A stretch of 33,613 nt of DNA from NCBI GenBank assembly GCA_028283955.1, contig JANQSP010000002.1, forward strand, positions 1 to 33,613. Reading direction: 5' to 3'. Positions 8,485 to 33,612 of the stretch are shown here, one piece after another (within the stretch, counting starts at the first letter, position 1; each line of letters opens with the position of its first letter). A model generated the notes under the pieces. The model was given only the letters and a program-made list of their open reading frames with translations. It was not told the DNA's origin and did no database searches. Made by a program: the position numbers and the translations under genes. Source of the stretch: Bdellovibrionales bacterium (GTDB lineage Bacteria; Bdellovibrionota; Bdellovibrionia; Bdellovibrionales; UBA1609).

Positions 8485-8560
8485 ATTTTTATATTTGCTA
8501 AGCTACTCTATGCATAGGTCCATAAATAAACTAATTAATTTAATTACTTAAGAAAAAGTG

Positions 8561-8634
8561 TCGGACCGACTGGATTTGAACCAGCGACCTCCACCACCCC
8601 AAGGTGACGCGCTACCGGGCTGCGCTACGGTCCG
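8561..8634 (-). tRNA. tRNA-Pro (anticodon GGG)
   Basis: Minus strand CGGACCGTAGCGCAGCCCGGTAGCGCGTCACCTTGGGGTGGTGGAGGTCGCTGGTTCAAATCCAGTCGGTCCGA folds as a cloverleaf; anticodon loop TTGGGGT. Confidence 0.95.
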
Positions 8635-9460: not shown

Positions 9461-9534
9461 GGCGGTCGTAGCTCAGTTGGTAGAGCGCCAGGTTGTGGTC
9501 CTGGATGTCGCGGGTTCAAGCCCCGTCGATCGCC
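9461..9534 (+). tRNA. tRNA-His (anticodon GTG)
   Basis: G(-1)GCGGTCGTAGCTCAGTTGGTAGAGCGCCAGGTTGTGGTCCTGGATGTCGCGGGTTCAAGCCCCGTCGATCGCC; loop TTGTGGT; extra G(-1) opposite C73. Confidence 0.96.
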
Positions 9535-9567
9535 CCTTTATTCGAAAATAAACAATAAAAAAGACTG

Positions 9568-9610
9568 GATGCGAGTGAACGTAGTAGGCAAGCCCCGTCG
9601 ATCGCCCCTT
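9568..9610 (+). repeat. tRNA-tail chimeric repeat, copy 1: GATGCGAGTGAACGTAGTAGG plus 22-bp exact copy of the tRNA-His 3' end
   Basis: CAAGCCCCGTCGATCGCCCCTT at 9517-9538 (within and just past the tRNA) recurs exactly at 9589-9610. Confidence 0.9.
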
Positions 9611-25830: not shown

Positions 25831-25931
25831 AAAGTCGCAGACAACACAGGCCATCCGTCGCTTCAAGTCCCCTTTTATAAAAAGAAGTGGGTTCCGCCCA
25901 CCTCTTTTTTTGGTGCCCGGCGAGGGACTTG
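25831..25931 (-). repeat. Distal copy of the tRNA-Leu tail/terminator/downstream repeat
   Basis: Contains 20-bp GGTGCCCGGCGAGGGACTTG (25912-25931), a terminator hairpin, and AAAGTCGCAGACAACACAGG..CGCTTCAAGTCCCC; repeats 26032-26139 with a period of about 200 bp. Confidence 0.9.
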
Positions 25932-26073
25932 CCTACTTCATTCATTCGCATCACGCTCTTTCATTGCGTAGGCTCCCCTCTCTCATTCAGAAAATCGTCC
26001 AGGATTTTCTGCCCTGTATTCTCTGCTCCCTAAAGTCGCAGACAACACAGGTCATTCGTTCGCTTCAAGTCCC
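25924..26073 (-). repeat. About 150-bp unit bounded by GGGACTTG/CAAGTCCC inverted ends with a central hairpin
   Basis: Plus strand gggacttg at 25924-25931 and caagtccc at 26066-26073; central perfect hairpin AGAAAATC-GTCCAG-GATTTTCT at 25989-26010. Confidence 0.7.
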
Positions 26074-26139
26074 CTGGTCTAAAAAAAAAGGAACTGGACT
26101 TCGTCCACTTCCTTTTTTTGGTGCCCGGCGAGGGACTTG
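26032..26139 (-). repeat. Proximal copy of the tRNA-Leu tail/terminator/downstream repeat
   Basis: Partner of 25831-25931; includes the 3' 20 bp of the tRNA-Leu region at 26120-26139. Confidence 0.9.
26081..26119 (-). terminator. Rho-independent terminator of tRNA-Leu
   Basis: Minus strand AAAAAAAGGAAGTGGACGAAGTCCAGTTCCTTTTTTTTT: GC stem plus U-tract. Confidence 0.85.
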
Positions 26140-26203
26140 AACCCCCACCTCAAAAGAGACATGATCCTAAGTCATGCGCGTCTACCAGTTCCGCCAGCCG
26201 GGC
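26119..26203 (-). tRNA. tRNA-Leu (anticodon TAG), 3' CCA encoded
   Basis: GCCCGGCTGGCGGAACTGGTAGACGCGCATGACTTAGGATCATGTCTCTTTTGAGGTGGGGGTTCAAGTCCCTCGCCGGGCACCA; loop CTTAGGA; long variable arm. Confidence 0.95.
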
Positions 26204-26223
26204 TTCCTCCTTTTTATAACTAC

Positions 26224-26310
26224 CGTCATCCCCACATACAATCGTCATCCCCGTGAAAACACCGTCATTCCCGTGAAAACACCATCATTCCCGCACAGGC
26301 GGGAGTCCAG
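26224..26310 (+). repeat. Polar half-REP array ending in a full REP hairpin
   Basis: cgtcatccccacatacaat / cgtcatccccgtgaaaacac / cgtcattcccgtgaaaacac / catcattcccgcacaggcgggagtccag. Confidence 0.85.
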
Positions 26311-33138: not shown

Positions 33139-33612
33139 CTAGATGCCCCGAATAACATCACCGCCGTCACCACCGCCGCCTGTATCAGCATCATCATCGT
33201 CATCATCGTCATCGTCACCGCCGCCGCCTGTAATAGGTTGAAAAGGCACCATACCACCACCACCATACATGATTTGGTAAATCTGCATTTGCAGACGATT
33301 AATTTCCGAATATAGTCCACTTGCTGCCTGGTATTTTTGCATGTAATTATTCATCTGAGCCTGTTGATAGGCGAGCATAGCTTGTTGGTATTGGATATAA
33401 GCCTGCATTCCAGCCATACCACCTCCGGGCATCGTTCCTCCGCCCATCATTCCACCTCCGGGCATCATCCCTCCGCCCATCATTCCGGGCATCATTCCAC
33501 CACCCATCATCGGCATCATTCCTCCGCCCATCATCGGCATCATTCCACCACCCATCATCGGCATCATTCCACCACCCATCATCGGCATCATTCCTCCGCC
33601 CATCATCGGCAT
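33139..33612 (-). CDS. Met/Gly-rich tandem-repeat protein with an Asp-run/Gly-rich C-terminus (5' end outside the window)
   Basis: MPMMGGGM 8-aa repeats (24-nt units), YQQAMLAYQQAQ segment, and DDDDDDDDDADTGGGGDGGD tail; ORF open to the window edge. Confidence 0.6.
   Translation of the reverse strand: MPMMGGGMMPMMGGGMMPMMGGGMMPMMGGGMMPMMGGGMMPGMMGGGMMPGGGMMGGGTMPGGGMAGMQAYIQYQQAMLAYQQAQMNNYMQKYQAASGLYSEINRLQMQIYQIMYGGGGMVPFQPITGGGGDDDDDDDDDADTGGGGDGGDVIRGI

Follow-up and report, generated by a model that had tools for sequence, protein, structure and literature searches.

The tandem repeat behind tRNA-Leu(TAG) in a Bdellovibrionales contig belongs to a family of structured elements that lie directly downstream of tRNA genes. 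Six properties of this family are shown by the data below: its position, its fixed plan, a covarying core, arms on both sides that match the element's own tRNA, spread over tRNA genes within genomes, and a phylum-wide distribution. The reading of the whole, a dispersed non-coding counterpart in Bdellovibrionota of the Escherichia coli RtT repeats, with the spread, arm rewriting and RNA role proposed below, is favored by only a modest margin.

The features found in the 33,613-nt stretch of DNA that was analyzed (the window) are listed in Table 1. The original prediction placed two copies of the tRNA-Leu tail at 26120-26139 and 25912-25931, 208 bp apart, each followed by a terminator-like hairpin and a shared segment, and it noted that the stems of the two hairpins differ in sequence. 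All of this held. The exact match extends to the plus-strand 28-mer CTTTTTTTGGTGCCCGGCGAGGGACTTG (26112-26139 and 25904-25931, with a spacing of 208 bp), terminator-like sites were called at both hairpins, which fold with z of about -6, and on the minus strand, GGGGACTTGAAGCG...CCTGTGTTGTCTGCGACTTT follows each tail copy (26061-26074 and 25859-25872). The length, identity and recurrence of the repeat exclude a chance origin. What that prediction overlooked is that GGGGACTTGAA is the antisense of the T-arm, that a structured core of 133 nt follows it, and that this core is found at other tRNA genes of the genome. The tRNA-Leu T-arm appears in reverse-complement form (GGGGACTTGAA) ahead of the core, which places inverted copies of the tRNA 3' region on both of its sides. 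A direct copy of that region closes each unit. No integrase gene was found inside the element, and the unit of about 208 bp contains no open reading frame of 100 amino acids.

Table 1. Features of the tRNA-Leu(TAG) element and its remnant in the window
Feature	Position	Strand	Evidence
Host tRNA-Leu(TAG)	26119-26203	-	ARAGORN, Rfam, coordinates
tRNA-Leu(TAG), position 57 to 3' end	26120-26138	-	
First terminator-like hairpin, A-tract/T-tract on both sides	26083-26119	-	-19.0 kcal/mol, z -6.1; called on both strands
Left arm GGGGACTTGAA, antisense of own tRNA-Leu T-arm	26064-26074	-	Sequence; own-tRNA specificity across the family
Element core, 133 nt	25931-26063	-	Covariance model match, covariation
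Core helix P1		-	
Core hairpin H1	26013-26052	-	
Core hairpin H2	25988-26011	-	
Core helix P1, right strand	25977-25987	-	
Core hairpin H3	25931-25973	-	
Right arm, second tRNA-Leu tail copy AAGTCCCTCGCCGGGCACC, 19 nt	25912-25930	-	Exact match
Second terminator-like hairpin, other stem sequence	25879-25911	-	-17.6 kcal/mol, z -5.7; site called on plus strand
Second element unit, truncated in H1 loop (left arm and 5' half of H1 only)	25831-25872	-	Direct repeat, coordinates
Remnant of a further copy, with the H3 right end GGATGCGAGTGAACGTAGTAGGC and then the tRNA-His tail	9567-9608	+	Sequence/coordinates
tRNA-His, source of the tail in the remnant	9462-9536		

Three other observations were made in the window. 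Short repeats CGTCATCCCCGTGAAAACACCGTCATTCCCG, immediately upstream of tRNA-Leu (26219-26310), resemble the dispersed GTCATTCCCGC repeats of many genomes. A minus-strand open reading frame at 33139-33612 consists of MMGGGMMP repeats; it is of low complexity and rich in methionine and glycine, with an acidic stretch. The region behind tRNA-Pro(GGG) (8560-8634) resembles the start of a tyrosine-integrase island in the carrier genome G002.

The structure consists of the stem P0, formed by the arms, the hairpins H1, H2 and H3, and the helix P1, in which YGAR motifs recur and possibly form tandem G.A pairs. A covariance model, R1, was built from 16 copies; its match in the window spans 25912-26081 and scores 164.8 bits, the window copy being among the model's own training sequences. 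In these first 16 copies, double-sided changes were found in 36 of the 47 pairs. All 47 pairs covaried in 61 further copies, with 802 double-sided cells as opposed to 241 after shuffling, and 92% of the cells were paired, compared with 34 to 37% after the partner was slid. These figures lean towards the structure because both alignments of copies (A2 and A4) were fitted to the model's own fold. Mismatches of the G-T type far outnumbered those of the A-C type in H1 (46:4 and 37:0) and in H3 (36:13 and 26:10). Thus, it is the tRNA-sense strand that folds, either as RNA or as single-stranded DNA. Mismatches in the P0 arms showed no bias (33:32). We read these ratios as structural selection on the core, with arms that are copied from the neighboring tRNA and need no selection for pairing. 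Selection on the hairpins, which had been inferred for the terminators together with a proposal to examine their covariance, was confirmed in substance; the covariance analysis was run on the core fold, and the strong evidence comes from the core hairpins, not from the terminators.

The phylum sample supplied 61 distinct matches that had played no part in building the model, and the origin of the arms was examined in these. A tRNA gene on the same strand lay upstream of 46 of them, at a median distance of 60 bp. The right end matched the tail of its own tRNA exactly over a median of 19 nt (18 to 19 nt for the family overall), as opposed to 5 nt for other tRNAs; matches of 12 nt or more were found in 29 of the 46 for the own tRNA and in 0.1% for other tRNAs. 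An antisense match of 10 nt or more at the left end was found for the own tRNA in 36 of the 46, versus 2.5% for other tRNAs. Among the 15 matches with no called tRNA, several were located at contig ends, beside N gaps, or past the far end of an apparent island in a tRNA gene. The element fulfils two criteria of an RtT-type plan: the unit lies downstream of a tRNA gene whose 3' tail is repeated at the unit's end, and an antisense T-arm, which pairs with the tail copy, precedes the hairpin core. A third criterion, a stable processed RNA whose 3' end is the CCA of the tail, is supported by the E. coli annotation only.

In the same 1.35-Mb assembly, the core is also present beside tRNA-Ser(GGA), and pieces of it lie beside the genes for tRNA-His (9567-9608 in the window), Gln, Arg(TCT) and Ser(GCT). 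Where ends survive (Ser(GGA), His and Gln), they carry the tail or the antisense arm of the respective tRNA. The copies in this source genome (G000) are mostly remnants. Relatives contain up to 17 copies per genome, beside genes for Leu, Ser, Gly, Gln, Arg, Trp, Met, His, Phe, Pro, Ala and Asp tRNAs. R1 matched 15 of the 47 genomes of the bacterial family, leaving 32 without a match. In the order, 25 of 141 genomes matched; the sample across the phylum (Bdellovibrionota, as judged from record titles) gave matches in 50 of 235 genomes and 39 of 138 genera. The named records with the motif are mostly assemblies of Bdellovibrionales, Bdellovibrionaceae, Bacteriovoracaceae and Bacteriovoracia, and the carriers include a Bdellovibrio strain with a copy at tRNA-Gln. 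Searches of a phage collection and of IMG/VR yielded no match to the element, and strict and permissive Rfam scans assigned no family to the core. The original description of a tandem repeat beside tRNA-Leu was thus too narrow for what is a dispersed family, with inverted tRNA arms, at many tRNA genes.

A tree of the cores, built without the arms, grouped 13 of the 14 copies of genome G003, nearly all of which are located at different tRNA genes (UFboot 92). A single clade of the five LeuTAG copies was rejected (p=1e-4), whereas one group of all 14 G003 copies was not rejected (p=0.37), which does not by itself demonstrate such a group. The LeuTAG copies of G000 and G002 adjoin in this tree, and the order gcvH-tRNA-Leu(TAG)-element recurs in several genera; the gene flanking the tRNA is one that we take to be gcvH, by eye from the flanking translation. 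Some sites, this one among them, are inherited despite the spread within genomes.

A second arrangement, type B, lacks H3; a degenerate 5' tRNA copy precedes the element, and a leader and an intact tRNA follow it. Type B copies were found with Ser, Arg, Ile, Gly and Trp tRNAs (tRNA-Ser(GGA) on contig C12 of G000, L002/L035; L057, L059, L101-L103, L106, L042 and L089). The T-arm of tRNA-Ser(GGA) in G000 itself appears altered, and it is unclear whether this tRNA is functional.

The best reading of these data is a second, independent RtT-type family that moves among tRNA genes and whose arms are rewritten from the adjacent tRNA. Its mode of movement and its RNA activity are inferred, and there are no expression data. 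The element may be a small sequence, selfish or merely tolerated, that passes from one tRNA gene to another, with the conserved T-arm probably serving as the short region of homology. At a new site, the arms would be copied from the tail of the resident tRNA, so that selection for their pairing would be unnecessary. Recombination of directly repeated tails may give rise to the right arm; the inverted left arm may come from hairpin-templated (quasi-palindrome) correction, which is known in E. coli, or from fill-in. Whole tandem units would be gained and lost through recombination between the tail or terminator repeats. The core is predicted to work as an RNA that is folded in the tRNA-sense orientation. 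By analogy with the annotated E. coli RttR, transcripts that read through from the tRNA would probably yield this RNA with a tRNA-like 3' end; tRNA-processing enzymes may release it by recognizing an acceptor/T-stem minihelix in the arm stem.

Several points weigh against this reading. No pair of empty and filled sites that would reveal a new insertion was found, and the short allele in E. coli retains a truncated unit. No mobilizer was found; neither reverse transcriptase nor Y1 transposase tracks the element. In many copies, a terminator lies between the tRNA and the core and should limit transcription. The G-T bias would also fit single-stranded DNA of the same strand.

The strongest rival, which remains possible, is a functional RNA selected by the host (an sRNA, a sponge, or an element of tRNA maturation or transcription) and fixed at tRNA genes. 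The arms would then be complementary since P0 must pair, and the copies within a genome would be homogenized by gene conversion. In favor of this explanation, the core covaries strongly and is biased to the tRNA-sense strand, E. coli RtT is annotated as a processed RNA, and the gcvH-tRNA-Leu(TAG)-element site is inherited in several genera. Against it, P0 lacks the excess of G-T over A-C mismatches that is found in H1, 32 of the 47 genomes of the same family have no match, the copies in G000 are mostly remnants, and the complete proK unit is missing from about half of the E. coli genomes.

It is unlikely that the units are minimal integrative elements or relics of attachment sites, moved by the integrases of tRNA-targeted islands. 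In this explanation, the bounds of the unit (tRNA position 57 and the tail) resemble the sites used by those tyrosine integrases whose crossover takes place in the T-loop. The boundary at C56|R57 agrees with it, as do the abundance of tyrosine-integrase islands at tRNA genes of these genomes, the presence of some copies at the apparent far end of such islands, and the type B copies upstream of island-bearing Ser and Ile tRNAs. However, the core is absent from the islands themselves, a single integrase would not provide matching tails for 10 or more tRNA identities, neither an inverted left arm nor a covarying core is part of an att site, and the number of integrases does not clearly follow the element. 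The tyrosine-integrase islands at the tRNA genes of these genomes (L145-L162) have direct repeats of the arm type right behind the CCA.

Mobilization by reverse transcription or as single-stranded DNA is very unlikely. In the first case, reverse transcription would start at a tRNA-like CCA end and jump templates in the T-loop; in the second, the unit would be a hairpin element of the HUH/Y1 type. The tRNA-like 3' end and the T-loop boundary speak for it, and the inverted arm could, by inference, arise by fill-in of a folded single strand. However, G000 contains no RVT_1, and no Y1_Tnp was found in G000 to G003, even though the highest copy numbers occur in two of them, G002 and G003; these genomes are MAGs, and the absence of Y1_Tnp is thus not absolute. 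Reverse transcriptase was likewise absent from G042, G028, G035 and G010, and one was found in each of G002 and G003. Finally, a purely local tandem duplication at tRNA-Leu without wider meaning, which the second unit and the 208-bp spacing would suggest, is all but excluded by the occurrence of the same core at many other tRNA genes with the arms of those tRNAs.

The RtT plan was already known from E. coli. Here it recurs throughout a phylum around a core that is unrelated to that of E. coli; the fold is well supported, and the arms match whichever tRNA lies next to them. A bolder interpretation is that the two unrelated cores, of Bdellovibrionota and of enterobacteria, exemplify a broad class of mobile bacterial RNA elements that has no name as yet. 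Such elements would be target-imprinted: they would take their ends from the tRNA gene beside which they land, and the 3'-end sequence of tRNAs would serve them as a universal tag for docking and processing. We regard this as a conjecture with the balance tipped against it. How a non-coding unit of about 200 bp spreads to different tRNA genes, how its ends come to match them, and what purpose RtT-type RNAs serve can now be tested, and the copy-number alleles at E. coli proK offer a tractable laboratory system. The data also caution that duplications of tRNA tails do not always mark islands.

Among known systems, the tRNA-targeted tyrosine-integrase islands share with the element a duplicated tRNA 3' tail and a boundary in the T-loop. 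The element differs from them in having no gene, an inverted arm, a unit of about 210 bp, a folded core and many tRNA identities. REP/BIME and MITE-type repeats are likewise short, non-coding, dispersed hairpin repeats, but the element is fixed at tRNA genes, its ends consist of host tRNA sequence, and the carriers with the most copies lack a Y1/RAYT partner for it. Two further candidates were considered from sequence only and rejected: no attC core sites of integrons were seen, nor were motifs or a coding part like those of group I/II introns.

The E. coli tyrT repeats have long been an isolated curiosity, and a literature search, which left most subscription journals outside its coverage, found no account of RtT repeats as a dispersed class. 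The label "tyrT/rtT-like" in the original prediction held for the plan and failed as a statement of sequence membership. The Rfam model RF00391 had no match in the window (criterion, above 45 bits), none at E<=5 in four related loci and none at E<=1 in six carrier genomes, while it did match the control, E. coli; R1 had no match in E. coli. Thus, the plan is common to both but the sequence family is not; common ancestry was not tested.

That plan, in E. coli RtT (RF00391; RttR, tpr locus) and in the element alike, runs tRNA, spacer, antisense T-arm, hairpin core, tail copy, spacer. In both, the hairpin core is GA-rich, the tail copy comprises the last ~18 to 20 nt of the tRNA including CCA, and the units stand in tandem. 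In the tyrT/tyrV units, the tRNA and spacer are followed by GGGGAAGGAT (antisense tail), hairpins and ATCCTTCCCCCACCACCA (tail); in the annotation, the 3' end of RttR is the CCA of this tail copy. The order from tRNA to tail copy is shared by the proK, tyrT and tyrV units. The left arms differ: the enterobacterial one extends over the T-arm's 5' strand and then turns back (GAACCT..AGGTTC), whereas that of Bdellovibrionota ends at position 54 and is followed by the P1/H1/H2/H3 core.

RtT-type units were also found at other enterobacterial tRNA genes. In E. coli, they lie behind proK; a single Klebsiella chromosome has them behind two tRNA-Ser(GGA) loci and within the lys/val and arg tRNA operons. 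These units, at Pro, Ser, Lys and Arg tRNA genes, each bear the tail of their own tRNA and are partly matched by RF00391. They differ from the element in their core and in being much shortened between the tRNA genes of the lys/arg operons. In the lys/val and arg operons of K. pneumoniae (L181, L183 and L184), the spacers are shortened RtT-type units that end in copies of the tRNA-Lys or tRNA-Arg tail. CP125156.1 (5.37 Mb), listed as a plasmid in PLSDB, is apparently a Klebsiella chromosome.

Copy number, which the original prediction had proposed to compare across strains, varies at E. coli proK. The alleles contain 0, 1 or 2 full units of a repeat of ~168 bp and a truncated last unit (L165/L167/L170), and among 5,400 genomes that matched the one-unit query, the match covered 80% or more of it in 2,668. 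Change in the number of tandem copies is thus shown in E. coli. The last proK unit is cut where a REP-like sequence starts. In plan, own tails and tandem units, the proK, tRNA-Ser(GGA), lys/val and arg units all resemble the element, and the last proK unit is truncated like the second unit in the window.
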